NCBI RefSeq assembly: GCF_030382115.1 | Contig: NZ_JAUDRJ010000003.1 | Span: 6,012,804-6,024,759 of the forward strand | Length of the DNA stretch: 11,956 nt | From: Nostoc sp. GT001 | GTDB taxonomy: Bacteria; Cyanobacteriota; Cyanobacteriia; Cyanobacteriales; Nostocaceae | Direction: 5' to 3' | Shown: positions 8,550-11,956 of the stretch, piece after piece | How the letters are laid out: each line of letters begins with the position of its first letter | Numbering within the stretch: position 1 is the stretch's first letter | Translations under genes and position numbers: made by a program | Notes under the pieces: model-generated | Database searches by the model: none | Told to the model about the DNA's origin: nothing | Seen by the model: the letters and a program-made list of their open reading frames with translations, nothing else

Positions 8550-8914
8550 TGATAGCCTTAGAGCGATAGTCTAGCGCCATGGCCAATATGGCTTGTTATC
8601 TTGAGATTTTAGAGTTTCTATCTTTTTTTAAGTTTATATAGAGTCAACTTAAACATTAGATATTTTCTGTCAGTTGGCAATATTTTCGGGACATAAATGT
8701 TTTAGTTAATGGTTGAAATTGCCTGAAATATGATATGAAAGTTTAATTGGTATGTAAGAGTTTACAGCTTGAGGAACTTATATGTCCCCCTACATAAAAT
8801 AAGAATAACTCAAAATTTATCGTTTTTTAGGGACATAAAAGTTTTATTTCTGTCTTATTCAAGTTCTAAAAAATAGAGTAATTAGCTTTATTTGTTTTTA
8901 ACATAAAGGTATAT
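8550..8914. other. AT-rich intergenic region with three GGGACATA sites
   Basis: No gene is seen. GGGACATAAATGTTTTA (8688-8704) recurs as GGGACATAAAAGTTTTA (8830-8846), 16 of 17 identical, 142 bp apart in direct orientation. A third core, inverted (TATGTCCC, 8781-8788), lies between them. The region otherwise is strongly AT-rich. The sites could bind a regulator or be worn ends of a mobile element; no integrase or transposase is present in the window to support the latter. Confidence 0.5.
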
Positions 8915-9240
8915 TATAGCGTTTCCTAATCACATGAGGTACATCTTAGCCCCCTCCTCGCTTGCCTATCCATTACCCGGATCTTTCTTAACATTTGTGA
9001 GAGTATTGACTCAGGCTTTTATAACCCTTATTGGTTCGTTGTTTATTCTCAATAAAAACGCAGTTTTAGCGACAATATTAAAAGCGAATTTGTCAAGTAT
9101 GCCTAACTCTTCAGTGTCTAAGACGGCTATAGAGCATAGGTTTCAAGATTGTAAAGAAAGATGTGACTAATGGATAGCTCGCTTGCGGGGAGGGGTTGAG
9201 GGTGGGGTTCTTGTACCTCACTCAACCGAGAATCGCTATA
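8915..9240. mobile_element. MITE-like element with 27-nt terminal inverted repeats and TA duplication
   Basis: The left end (8917-8943) begins TAGCGTTTC and ends TGAGGTACA. The right end (9212-9238), read on the minus strand, begins TAGCGATTC and ends TGAGGTACA. The two 27-nt ends are the same length and match at 18 positions, concentrated in the outer 5 and inner 9 bases. A TA dinucleotide flanks each end (8915-8916, 9239-9240), as expected for insertion by an IS630/Tc1-type transposase, which duplicates TA. No transposase fits in the 322 bp, so it would be a non-autonomous element. Sub-terminal segments are C-rich on the left and G-rich on the right. The 78-codon open frame inside (8934-9170) starts within the left repeat, lacks a ribosome site and is judged spurious. 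The element ends 70 nt before the double-glycine peptide gene. Confidence 0.7.
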
Positions 9241-9273
9241 GGCAATTACACTAATAAATATAATAATTGCCTA
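9239..9273 (+). promoter_or_regulatory. Perfect 10-bp palindrome enclosing a TATAAT box, upstream of the peptide gene
   Basis: TAGGCAATTA (9239-9248) and TAATTGCCTA (9264-9273) are perfect inverted arms with a 15-nt spacer. A consensus TATAAT lies at 9259-9264, inside the palindrome and 46 nt before the ATG of the double-glycine peptide. No good -35 hexamer is seen 17 nt further up; that position falls at the end of the MITE-like element. A repressor binding both arms would block this -10 box. An RNA hairpin is the alternative, but there is no T-run for a terminator. Confidence 0.45.
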
Positions 9274-9310
9274 AAAATAATCACTAGTCAAAAATTAGAG
9301 GAAAATCAAG

Positions 9311-9541
9311 ATGAAAGCGAAAGAAAGAAAGTATAACAGTCAAATTGAGATTAGCGATTTGATTGATGATGCTGTGAAAAATGCTGTGACACGTCGGAAC
9401 GAAGTTTTGAATTCAGAAGAAGCTTTTTTATCTATGTCTGACGAAGAAGCAAAAAACGTTGCAGGTGGAGTATTAGCACCTTTTATTCTTACTACTATAG
9501 GAATCATAGCACCCAATCCAACTGATACCAATTCTGTATGA
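9311..9541 (+). CDS. Double-glycine-leader peptide precursor (bacteriocin/secreted-peptide type)
   Basis: A 76-residue precursor-like protein. Residues 1-53 are a charged, helical leader ending in MSDEEAKNVAGG (42-53). This fits the double-glycine consensus: hydrophobic at -12, Ser at -11, Glu at -8, Val at -4, Gly-Gly at -2/-1. Such leaders are cut by C39 peptidase domains of ABC exporters during secretion. The predicted 23-residue product (54-76) is hydrophobic then polar (VLAPFILTTIGIIAPN, then PTDTNSV). It has four Thr and one Ser but no Cys, so thioether lanthipeptide rings are not possible. The ATG is supported by AGAGGA 8 nt upstream. Cyanobacteria encode many short double-glycine peptides, including secreted biofilm factors and bacteriocin candidates. 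No C39 transporter is in the window. A palindrome with a -10 box precedes it, and a Cys-rich gene follows on the same strand. Confidence 0.72.
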   Translation: MKAKERKYNSQIEISDLIDDAVKNAVTRRNEVLNSEEAFLSMSDEEAKNVAGGVLAPFILTTIGIIAPNPTDTNSV

Positions 9542-9558
9542 AGATGCGCCAAACTATA

Positions 9559-9660
9559 TGAGGAACGAACCGCATTCGCGCAGCATCTCGTTAGAGAAGG
9601 GCGCAAAGGACACAAAGAAGAAAGAAAATTTGGCGCAGCCTCACAAAGAAATGGTATGAG
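9559..9660. repeat. Probable degenerate interspersed repeat between the peptide and Cys-rich genes
   Basis: This stretch has the look of the purine-rich interspersed repeat common in Nostoc-type genomes, with the sequence pattern GAACCGCA...GGCGCAGAGGACACAGAG. Here it reads GAACGAACCGCATTCGCG, then GGGCGCAAAGGACACAAAG and GGCGCAGCCTCACAAAG. It contains two GCGCA(A/G) repeats about 35 nt apart. It fills most of the gap between the two genes. Recognition is from memory of the pattern, without a search, so confidence is limited. Confidence 0.35.
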
Positions 9661-9702
9661 ACGTTGTATTCATAAATATTATCTCCACTGGAGGCTCAAT
9701 TG

Positions 9703-10140
9703 ATGGAAGACATTGTTGTGGATAAAACTACACTCTGTCCCAGTGCTAGGCCCGAATCTTGGGATAGTGTTGTCTTTGGCGTAGTCGTTGGGACAGTAAC
9801 AGAACCCCGTGTAGCTTATCTCAAAAAGCCCCAACCTATCACAGATGAACTAATAGCAAAAGCTAGTCCAATTACACCTGCGGAAATTTTTCGAATGGCA
9901 GCACCTTGCGCTACTAAAGGTTGTCAGCATTTTGATGGACAAGATTGCCGTCTAGCGATGCGAATTGTAGAAAAGTTACCTGTAGTAGCAGAAGAACTAT
10001 CCCCCTGTTCCATACGCCGAAATTGTCGGTGGTGGCAACAAGAAGGTAGAGCCGCTTGTATGCGTTGTCCGCAAGTTATTACAGATAACTACAATGCATC
10101 TGAGTTAGCAGTTAAGGTAGCGGCACCAATATCTGATTAG
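9703..10140 (+). CDS. Unrecognised Cys-rich protein, possible metal or Fe-S binder
   Basis: A 145-residue soluble protein that I cannot assign to a named family. Seven of its eight cysteines are clustered: C69-x4-C74-x7-C82, then C102-x5-C108-x10-C119-x2-C122, with Cys12 alone near the N-terminus. The segments APCATKGCQHFDGQDCRLAM (67-86) and RNCRWWQQEGRAACMRCPQV (106-125) look like ligand loops, which suggests zinc or an Fe-S cluster. Residues 20-60 resemble a short beta region followed by a helix with TPAEIFRMA. There is no signal peptide or membrane helix. ATG at 9703 is chosen because GGAGG (9690-9694) sits 8 nt upstream; a TTG at 9700 would give one extra residue at 5-nt spacing. It follows the double-glycine peptide gene by 161 nt on the same strand. 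A role in maturation or regulation of that peptide is only a guess from position. Confidence 0.8.
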   Translation: MEDIVVDKTTLCPSARPESWDSVVFGVVVGTVTEPRVAYLKKPQPITDELIAKASPITPAEIFRMAAPCATKGCQHFDGQDCRLAMRIVEKLPVVAEELSPCSIRRNCRWWQQEGRAACMRCPQVITDNYNASELAVKVAAPISD

Positions 10141-10279
10141 AACAAATCAAAGTTCAATATTTTTCAAAAAACTTATTGATTAATGAGGAGAATTTTCATA
10201 TTAGATAAACACAAAAGCTAAATGTTTAAAGAGCTTTGATTATAAACTCAAAAAATACTAAATAGTTATCCAAAACCCA

Positions 10280-10310
10280 TGTAGAGACATAGCAGTGCTA
10301 CGTCTCTACA
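10280..10310. repeat. Palindromic TGTAGAGAC interspersed repeat, possible bidirectional terminator
   Basis: TGTAGAGAC (10280-10288) pairs perfectly with GTCTCTACA (10302-10310). Inside, TAGCA (10290-10294) pairs with TGCTA (10296-10300). It belongs to the GTAGAGACG...CGTCTCTAC palindromes that are very common in Nostoc-type genomes. Here it lies between the converging Cys-rich and isomerase genes. The stem is strong enough to terminate either transcript, but no long T-run follows. Confidence 0.65.
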
Positions 10311-10339
10311 TTCATTTTCATTCCTATGTTTATGTAATC

Positions 10340-11110
10340 CTAATCGTGGGTATTTTTCAAATTTTGCAACCACGCTTGAAACAACGAGTCCATAATTTGT
10401 TCTCTCACTGCTTGATTCAATTCTATCGGGAACCACTTTTCCACTCTCATAACGTGATACCCCACTTTTGTTTGCACAGGGCCAATAATTTCACCTTCCT
10501 TAGCTTCAGTAAGAGGTTTGGCAATTTCCGGTACCAGTTCTACTAAATAGCGAACTCCTACAAAACCGCCATTTTCTTGTGACTGCTGACCCTTAGAATG
10601 TTCCAAAGCCAAAGCACAGAAAGAAGCTTGTCCTTCGCGTAGAATTTGCACGATTTTCCAAGCAGTTGCCAGATCAGTAACCAGAATTTGCGATAGCGCT
10701 ACCCGTCTGTAGTTGTCGCGGTTGGAAACATAAGCGCCATCGACTGTTGCACCGAACAGATGTTCTTTAAGCTTCTTCTCCAACAGTACTACTTTAATTC
10801 CTTGCGACCACTCATCTACACTAATGCGCTGCTCCTCCAGCCATGCACTAGTTTCTGCATTTCCCCATAACTTGCGTTCCAAGCGAAAAGCATCGCCAGC
10901 GGCTTGCCATTCATCATCAGATATTTCAATTCCTAACTGGTTGCAGTTAGCTAAAACTAATGCCTCACGTTCAGCAGCGATCGCAATTTCTGCAAACCTA
11001 GCAGAATGACGCAGATATGTCAAAATTTCTGCATCGGTTGCTGGATGAGATTGCACGGGTTCGTTGGTTAAAACCTTGGGCGGTAAAGTTTGTTCTAATT
11101 GTTCGGTCAT
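10340..11110 (-). CDS. Parvulin-type (SurA-like) peptidyl-prolyl isomerase, no signal peptide
   Basis: A 256-residue protein with a SurA N-terminal-like helical domain (about 25-125) and a parvulin/rotamase domain (about 135-225). The parvulin marks are RRVALSQILVTD (135-146), EHSKGQQSQENGGFVGVRYL (170-189) and EIIGPVQTKVGYHVMRVEKW (207-226). Unlike true SurA it has no signal peptide or lipobox, so it should be cytoplasmic. Parvulins catalyse cis-trans isomerisation of peptidyl-prolyl bonds and often act as chaperones. Cyanobacterial proteins of this soluble type can occur near peptide-export genes, which makes the convergent double-glycine peptide interesting, but a direct link is inference. 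It begins 30 nt after the stop of the upstream aldo/keto-reductase-like gene, so the two probably form one operon. The ATG has no good Shine-Dalgarno. A HIP1 site is at 10977-10984. Confidence 0.9.
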   Translation of the reverse strand: MTEQLEQTLPPKVLTNEPVQSHPATDAEILTYLRHSARFAEIAIAAEREALVLANCNQLGIEISDDEWQAAGDAFRLERKLWGNAETSAWLEEQRISVDEWSQGIKVVLLEKKLKEHLFGATVDGAYVSNRDNYRRVALSQILVTDLATAWKIVQILREGQASFCALALEHSKGQQSQENGGFVGVRYLVELVPEIAKPLTEAKEGEIIGPVQTKVGYHVMRVEKWFPIELNQAVREQIMDSLFQAWLQNLKNTHD

Positions 11111-11140: not shown

Positions 11141-11956
11141 CTATCTGCCAACAAGCAAACGTTCTGTAGGGATTTCGTGAGGTTTGATGTGGTTGCGATG
11201 TAAGTCGCCGTAAAGGTTGAGGTAGTCGATTTCTTCAGGGGTAAGTTTGCCCTTTTGCACACCCTGAATTGCTGCATCTACATGTTCACGAGTTTGCCAA
11301 CCTGCTAACGCAACATCTACAGAGTTTTGACTTAAAGAATAGCGATATAAATCTGGGACTGAAGGTTGCCAGCATCCAGTTGGTAAACCAGCCGGGGGTT
11401 CCCAGAGCGCACCCATCATACCTGCGGACTTAAAGGTGACAATCCCTGGTCTATAGGGATCGTTGGCATCCAAATGGGGGAACACCTTTTTTTGGGCTGT
11501 ACGATGTGCCACATTGTGCCTCACCATCGCAACATCCAAAAAAGGGCTATTTAGCCACTGTTTTGCTAAATCGTGGTCGTGAAAAGAAGCACCAATATAG
11601 CGCACTACACCCATTTCTTTCATCTTTTCGGAAATACCAAATACTCTTTCTATTTGGCGCTGAGTTACTGACCCCGGGCCACGGATATCGTCAGAGGCCC
11701 TGATACACTTCTCAAAAGCAGGATGATTATGCTCATCAATCCAGCCCCAGAAAAACACATCAATGTAGTCAATACCTAAGTCGATAAATTGATCGAATAA
11801 ATAGGTGAATGCTGTGTCTGGGGTTCTAATCATGTAACTGACAGTTGCCAGAACTACCTTCTCACGCATTGAGGAACCGCGTCCGCATAATTGGCGGAGC
11901 GCAGGACGCATCGAACTATAAAGATATTGATGTAAATCGCTGGAGTAGAAAAAAAG
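11141..11956 (-). CDS. Aldo/keto-reductase-fold protein with altered catalytic residues, 5'-partial
   Basis: The reading frame stays open to the right edge, so the N-terminus is missing and the ATG at 11911 is internal. Visible are 271 residues of an aldo/keto reductase TIM barrel: MREKVVLATVSYM, FIDLGIDYIDVFFWGWIDEH, KEMGVVRYIGASFHDHDLAK, and a C-terminal tail after the QTREHVDAAIQGV NADPH-site-like helix. Active family members use a Asp-Tyr-Lys-His tetrad and reduce carbonyls with NADPH. Here the lysine of the usual ATK is Val (ATV, codon 11840-11842), and the histidine of the usual IHW is Gly (WGW, codon 11744-11746). The Asp and Tyr would lie at or beyond the window edge. The fold is clear, but ordinary reductase chemistry is doubtful. 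It is upstream of the isomerase gene on the same strand. Confidence 0.85.
   Translation of the reverse strand, partial: LFFYSSDLHQYLYSSMRPALRQLCGRGSSMREKVVLATVSYMIRTPDTAFTYLFDQFIDLGIDYIDVFFWGWIDEHNHPAFEKCIRASDDIRGPGSVTQRQIERVFGISEKMKEMGVVRYIGASFHDHDLAKQWLNSPFLDVAMVRHNVAHRTAQKKVFPHLDANDPYRPGIVTFKSAGMMGALWEPPAGLPTGCWQPSVPDLYRYSLSQNSVDVALAGWQTREHVDAAIQGVQKGKLTPEEIDYLNLYGDLHRNHIKPHEIPTERLLVGR

Follow-up and report, generated by a model that had tools for sequence, protein, structure and literature searches.

The stretch of DNA analysed here (the window; 11,956 nt, G000:C3:6012804-6024759) lies within the 7.9-Mb genome of Nostoc sp. GT001, whose nearest named relatives in the comparisons were Nostoc. 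It contains a gene for a small peptide with a double-glycine (GG) leader, followed by a gene for a Cys-rich protein, here termed Cys145 (Table 1). The locus raises the question of whether the two genes constitute a dedicated unit and, if so, what Cys145 might do for the peptide. The first-pass annotation had described a 76-residue precursor with a GG at residues 52-53 and a Cys-free product, together with ribosome binding sites for both genes. All these features were found, the predicted 23-residue product being VLAPFILTTIGIIAPNPTDTNSV. Database searches gave 40 precursor proteins including that of the window (39 further homologues), in which the leader was conserved and the core variable; the leader motif, on which the earlier reading could have failed, proved to be conserved, the GG being invariant in 40/40. 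On sequence grounds, a conserved leader ending in GG and a variable core place the precursor among the double-glycine peptides, and a C39-peptidase exporter lies nearby, with HlyD and PpiC.

Table 1. Features of the window and their positions (nt, counted from its first letter).
Feature	Position	Strand	Details
Conserved upstream dyad	8832-8854	+	GACATAAAAGTTTTATTTCTGTC; 1 match in the window, 0 in 200 shuffles
MITE-like insertion in the gap between dyad and promoter region	8914-9238	.	Ends approximate, ~325 bp
Inverted repeat, candidate operator	9239-9273	+	TAGGCAATTA-N15-TAATTGCCTA; arms 9239-9248/9264-9273
Ribosome site of the precursor	9297-9301	+	AGAGG; AGAGG in 9/10 relatives compared, AAAGG in L015
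Double-glycine precursor, 76 aa	9311-9541	+	Leader 1-53, core 54-76, core motif TTIGII
Dispersed repeat between precursor and Cys145	9545-9660	.	22 other match rows in own genome
Ribosome site of Cys145	9690-9694	+	GGAGG
Cys145, Cys-rich, 145 aa	9703-10140	+	146 aa if the TTG at 9700 is the start
Putative deletion scar	10153-10352	.	Nearest relatives have Nif11 peptide, radical SAM and PlpY-like genes here
PpiC/SurA-type isomerase, end of neighbouring row	10340-11110	-	PF00639, 53 bits
Aldo/keto reductase, running past the window end	11141-11956	-	PF00248; continues in L006

Searches with Cys145 gave 1486 matches at E <= 1e-3, the window copy included, of which the best 120 were listed. With this many matches to Cys145, and 39 homologues of the precursor with an invariant GG, the locus is not a product of chance. 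The Cys spacings noted in the first-pass annotation (C-x4-C-x7-C and C-x5-C-x10-C-x2-C) are present, but its count of seven was one short, since an eighth Cys lies at position 12; the full set is 12, 69, 74, 82, 102, 108, 119 and 122. Among 73 Cys145 sequences, C74, C82, C102, C108, C119 and C122 were invariant and C12 and C69 nearly so; with 121 sequences, C82 became nearly invariant. The protein has no long hydrophobic stretch. It had been described as belonging to no recognised family, and this held: no Pfam or NCBIfam family was found for the window copy (121 members scanned gave scattered weak matches only), there was no convincing match in the PDB, and a fold comparison of the predicted structure, which was of middling confidence (mean pLDDT 66), returned no match. 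None of these comparisons points to an activity, which tells against the maturation role proposed below; metal binding, immunity or sensing may be proposed for Cys145. Neither Cys145 nor its peptide was found described in the open PMC papers searched.

In 292 genomes sampled across the cyanobacterial phylum, a Cys145 match was found in 18 (in this search and that with the precursor, the best 13 or 18 candidates were scored in some genomes, and weak homologues may thus be missed). It was intact in 16 and broken in the other two, as a stop-containing fragment in G064 and truncated in G284. All 16 genomes with an intact Cys145 had a GG peptide adjacent to it, contrary to the refuting outcome named in the first-pass annotation (homologues rarely near such peptides), and all 14 genomes with a convincing match to the window-type precursor had an intact Cys145 (Fisher 4e-22, with the 292 genomes treated as independent). 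In G097 and G237 a GG peptide with a different leader and the core PPIT[LI]GII lay directly 3' of Cys145. The precursor profile had no match in the two genomes with a broken Cys145, nor in the four that carry a radical SAM protein above the TIGR04103 cut-off (see below) without Cys145. A fifteenth genome retrieved with this profile, G013, was discarded as spurious (E = 0.006, 33 positions within a 478-aa frame). Cys145 also followed the precursor in 13/13 named loci, but these were collected by means of the precursor itself, so an unbiased pairing rate comes only from the 292-genome searches. With the 16/16 pairing and the GG invariant in 40/40 proteins, the proposal of a dedicated unit of peptide and Cys-rich partner gained support. 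Gene comparisons thus indicate that the GG peptide and Cys145 are a conserved two-gene unit, very probably a real RiPP (ribosomal, post-translationally modified peptide) module. A second type of GG peptide, with a related leader and short cores such as FRIIFGYFPVDIA, was seen just 3' of Cys145 in three loci (L009 11051-11257, L062 8843-9067 and L063 8719-8925), and genome G101 contained further precursor-type matches (L097, L099) away from the contig that carries Cys145.

In the relatives, the pair usually stands at the head of a RiPP cluster in the order GG peptide, Cys145, Nif11-leader peptides with Tyr-Gly cores, TIGR04103 radical SAM protein and PlpY-like protein, after which come class V lanthipeptide-like genes and a C39 exporter. 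This larger cluster, the missing splicease of the window and its two repeats had not been foreseen in the first-pass annotation. An intact radical SAM protein of 420-435 aa was encoded in the same row in 9/13 of the precursor-found loci, and the three scanned scored 838-841 bits against the TIGR04103 cut-off of 725. TIGR04103 is here taken to be the splicease class and, presumably, to equal IPR026482. The passages on PlpX in a review assign it to the IPR026482 class (PMC11002830). The Nif11-leader peptides were encoded between Cys145 and the radical SAM protein (the order differed in L018). Three of them were scanned and all fitted the Nif11 leader model, and YG was present in 33/33 extracted Nif11-type cores, one of these from the distant L061 locus; the natural PlpXY sites given in sections of PMC10533398 are MYG and LYG. 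The 55-78-aa protein encoded 3' of the radical SAM gene was called PlpY-like from its position. The idea that Cys145 is itself the PlpY-like protein was rejected, given a probability of 0.4% in an hhalign profile comparison and the presence of both proteins in the same loci.

Among the 292 genomes, 17 had TIGR04103 above its cut-off, and 13 of these were among the 18 with a Cys145 match (Fisher 1.4e-15). The two genes were adjacent in 11 of the 13, the exceptions being GT001 (G000) and G101, in which the pair and the splicease are on separate contigs; in one of the 11, G251, the radical SAM gene was broken. An intact adjacent splicease was present in 10/16 genomes with an intact Cys145 in this unbiased set. 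G167, G278 and G103 had no TIGR04103 match at E <= 1e-80 and their pairs were intact, while G019, G042, G174 and G253 carried both TIGR04103 and a PlpY-like protein but lacked Cys145. As judged from gene content, the peptide tracks Cys145 more strictly than it tracks the splicease, and the comparison of genomes shows that intact pairs also occur in loci whose splicease is missing or damaged.

In a tree built from 29 Cys145 genes, 19 had an intact radical SAM gene adjacent and 10 did not, a distribution that needed nine changes, at least six of them forced by starred branches. The gene set was partly chosen by the precursor; L077 and L078, with a broken Cys145, were left out, and in rows L066, L067 and L070 the sequence took in the stop or went beyond it, by a few codons at most. 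Shuffled labels required a mean of 8.6 changes, and 380/500 shuffles were as low as the observed value; the nine changes thus reflect lability, not direction, and the label is unclustered on the tree. With a midpoint root and several weak branches, gains and losses look alike on the tree alone. Loss of the splicease is seen directly only in L009 and L076, where the radical SAM gene is broken in place.

The cores of the paired peptides offer a clue to what the module may do. A set of 23 cores, from which the three second-type peptides (L009, L062, L063) were excluded, ranged from 19 to 42 aa, varied in sequence and had a high content of Ile, Leu and Pro; the core counts do not include the first peptides of L009, L013, L017, L018, L019, L020 and L070. 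The pattern P-x(1-3)-[ILVTCF]-G-[LIVKY]-[IVFA] was found in 19/23 of these cores (shuffle mean 1.2) and 32/38 cores of the homologue set (shuffle mean 2.3), and the G element appeared twice in 11/23 (shuffle mean 0.1), although the pattern was picked after reading the cores, the shuffles take no account of shared descent, and some cores belong to both sets. The core PIILGKFPPITIGLIA (L073) mirrors the Nif11 core PLYGVIVWPPVQAMYGVV (L066) with an aliphatic residue at the Tyr position, and a WPP and xG layout is common to paired cores and Nif11 splicease substrates. In sequence, then, the paired cores look like splicease substrates whose Tyr is exchanged for an aliphatic residue (PITIGLIA, for example). 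YG was seen in 0/23 related cores and 1/38 homologue-set cores, a scarcity unremarkable by itself since the shuffle means were only 1.1 and 1.6. By eye, an xG[LIVK]-type element was retained by all ten pairs that lack an intact radical SAM gene next to them. The window core contains TTIGII with the P too distant, and so falls outside the P-x(1-3) form; it has no Tyr and hence no X-Tyr-Gly.

The reading we prefer is that the pair is a RiPP module in which Cys145 would be a soluble maturation factor, binding a metal or an iron-sulphur cluster and recognising the peptide. It might act on the motif [I/L/V/T]-G-[L/I/K]-[I/V], which often has a P before it and is often repeated, or hold this motif for a partner; the leader would be cleaved after the GG and the peptide exported through the neighbouring C39/HlyD transporter. 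A maturation role is favoured by the gene order and the strictness of the pairing, by the conserved Cys, by the lack of a long hydrophobic stretch and by retention of the motif in the absence of a splicease, and we put the prediction that Cys145 works in the cytosol as a maturation factor dedicated to the paired peptide at about an even chance. A bolder proposal, to be taken as speculative, is that Cys145 represents a RiPP maturation protein of a new class. This small, non-radical-SAM metalloprotein would modify side chains or the backbone at X-(Ile/Leu/Val/Thr)-Gly, its substrates being peptides that copy those of the splicease but have no Tyr.

Whatever the family does, the window pair itself may have lost its function and be a mere remnant of a splicease cluster, a reading compatible with the maturation role and one we hold to be quite possible, if on balance doubtful. 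The Nif11, radical SAM and PlpY-like genes are missing: the alignment with L016 ends at window position 10153 (L016 10708) and restarts at 10352 (L016 13069), the L016 segment 10738-12627 holding these genes, and neither a TIGR04103-type radical SAM nor a PlpY-like protein had a match in the window or in L006. The four rows nearest to the window in the tree (L014-L017) all retain the splicease, as would be expected had it been lost in the window line. This grouping was not starred, and L013 also lacks the splicease, has the same gene order and shares a repeat, window positions 10265-10318 having matches at several sites in L013; when the loss took place, and whether independently, is therefore unsure. 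The upstream region is disturbed as well. A slightly degenerate form of the dyad stands ~141-156 bp 5' of the precursor in L008, L009, L011, L012, L015 and L062, against 479 bp in the window, where the MITE-like insertion separates the two. This insertion was absent from the upstream regions of 10 relatives compared, has imperfect inverted repeats as its ends and gave at least 24 other match rows in its own genome, mostly to its two ends (the best 40 of 115 candidates were scored). Another repeat separates precursor and Cys145, with a gap of 161 nt against ~7-60 nt in most loci compared; longer gaps were also found in L009, L062, L068 and L070. The controlled promoter first suggested fared unevenly: the inverted repeat is exact (10-nt arms, 100% complementary), and an element like it is readable upstream in L009, L010 and L011 and partially in others, but a general sigma-70 scan found three sites against a shuffle mean of 3.6 and lent the promoter no support. 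Changes unique to the window branch of Cys145 (seven nonsynonymous and six synonymous, with T65M, P100S and K116R at conserved positions) also suit a relic, although L011, in which the splicease is intact, likewise showed seven to six. Against a relic stand the integrity of both frames, the GG, the IGII core element, the ribosome sites and all eight Cys, and a pairwise dN/dS for the window copy of 0.16-0.29 against 11 relatives, a value that averages both lines. On its own branch, the window Cys145 does not appear clearly constrained. Its expression is doubtful: with a disturbed upstream region and gene spacing and a lost splicease, this copy may be weakly expressed or disappearing.

For the family as a whole, the chief competitor of a dedicated maturation factor is that Cys145 serves the splicease itself (in recognition, electron supply or as a chaperone), the peptide being a regulatory decoy or a further radical SAM substrate and the pair-only genomes decaying remnants. 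The co-occurrence with TIGR04103 and the adjacency in 11/13 genomes would suit such an accessory, as would the WPP and xG layout of the cores. In GT001 a splicease could even act in trans: the only TIGR04103 copy found in this genome is at G000:C3:7010476-7011711, ~1 Mb from the window. That locus (L054, L061) also encodes a 153-aa Nif11-type precursor with a QALYGVV core and a PlpY-like protein, without Cys145. An accessory role accords poorly with the three genomes whose pairs are intact without a TIGR04103 match, with the four that have TIGR04103 and a PlpY-like protein yet no Cys145, and with the absence of the precursor match wherever Cys145 is missing or broken; we regard it as rather improbable.

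Immunity proteins for GG peptides are often membrane proteins. Cys145 might instead be dedicated to immunity against the peptide or to its sequestration, or be a sensor regulating it. This would also be in keeping with the strict pairing and adjacency, as for a toxin and its immunity partner, and with cores rich in Ile, Leu and Pro. However, Cys145 has no long hydrophobic stretch, and it is strongly conserved while the 23 cores vary in length and sequence, for which an enzyme-like role is better suited; immunity or sensing thus seems unlikely. A role in nitrogen fixation, after the NCBI name "nitrogen fixation protein" carried by many of the Cys145 homologues among the matches listed, is highly improbable: although 16/18 carriers have a nifD-family match (13 above the cut-off), G097 and G237 have none and their Cys145 is intact, so that Cys145 is not confined to genomes with nif genes, homologues occur in Microcystis, and the gene context is that of a RiPP. 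The name looks wrong, and probably derives from the neighbouring Nif11 peptides.

In convergent orientation to the pair, the minus strand carries a row of export and class V lanthipeptide-like genes, to which the PpiC isomerase (TIGR04500 76 bits, under the cut-off of 180) and the aldo/keto reductase of the window were assigned from their position. The row goes on in L006 982-12192 with HopA1 (PF17914, 211 bits), an LxmK-like kinase, four GG peptides, PpiC, HlyD and a 906-aa cNMP-C39-ABC exporter (L006 9472-12192, ~10.5 kb from the end of Cys145). Three of the four peptides are similar and of 75 aa, the fourth has 79 aa, and their cores are Asn-rich and Cys-free. HopA1 and the LxmK-like kinase recall class V lanthipeptide clusters of the LxmK/HopA1 type. 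The kinase, however, scored 96 bits with NF038156, below the curated cut-off of 315, and the precursor and the four row peptides all lack Cys, so no lanthionine is possible within any one of them. The GG leader, cNMP-C39-ABC, HlyD and SurA-type genes are shared with the CTB and other cyanobacterial double-glycine bacteriocins, and the long-transporter groups with SurA in the relevant passages of Wang et al. 2011 (PMC3140520) are like the adjacent row; those passages describe no counterpart of Cys145, and the CTB model NF038167 gave the precursor 13.7 bits against a cut-off of 32.

Splicease clusters have been studied for making alpha-keto-beta-amino acids. The closest known system is the spliceotide PlpA/PlpX/PlpY type (tyramine excision), in which PlpY is described, in the part of a review devoted to it, as a truncated recognition element (PMC11002830). 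The window differs from it in the absence of the Nif11 peptide, radical SAM and PlpY-like protein, and its peptide in the Tyr-free core and different leader; many relatives of the pair nevertheless adjoin Nif11/Tyr-Gly peptides, TIGR04103 and a PlpY-like protein. Many splicease clusters thus carry a conserved extra module, with its own peptide and a Cys-rich protein, that is also intact without the splicease, and that would represent either a second chemistry on a Tyr-free version of the splicease motif or an unrecognised splicease partner. The "nitrogen fixation protein" name on many database entries is put in question as well. The cluster is of a known kind; what is new is that a component without an assigned family, and a peptide type, go with it.
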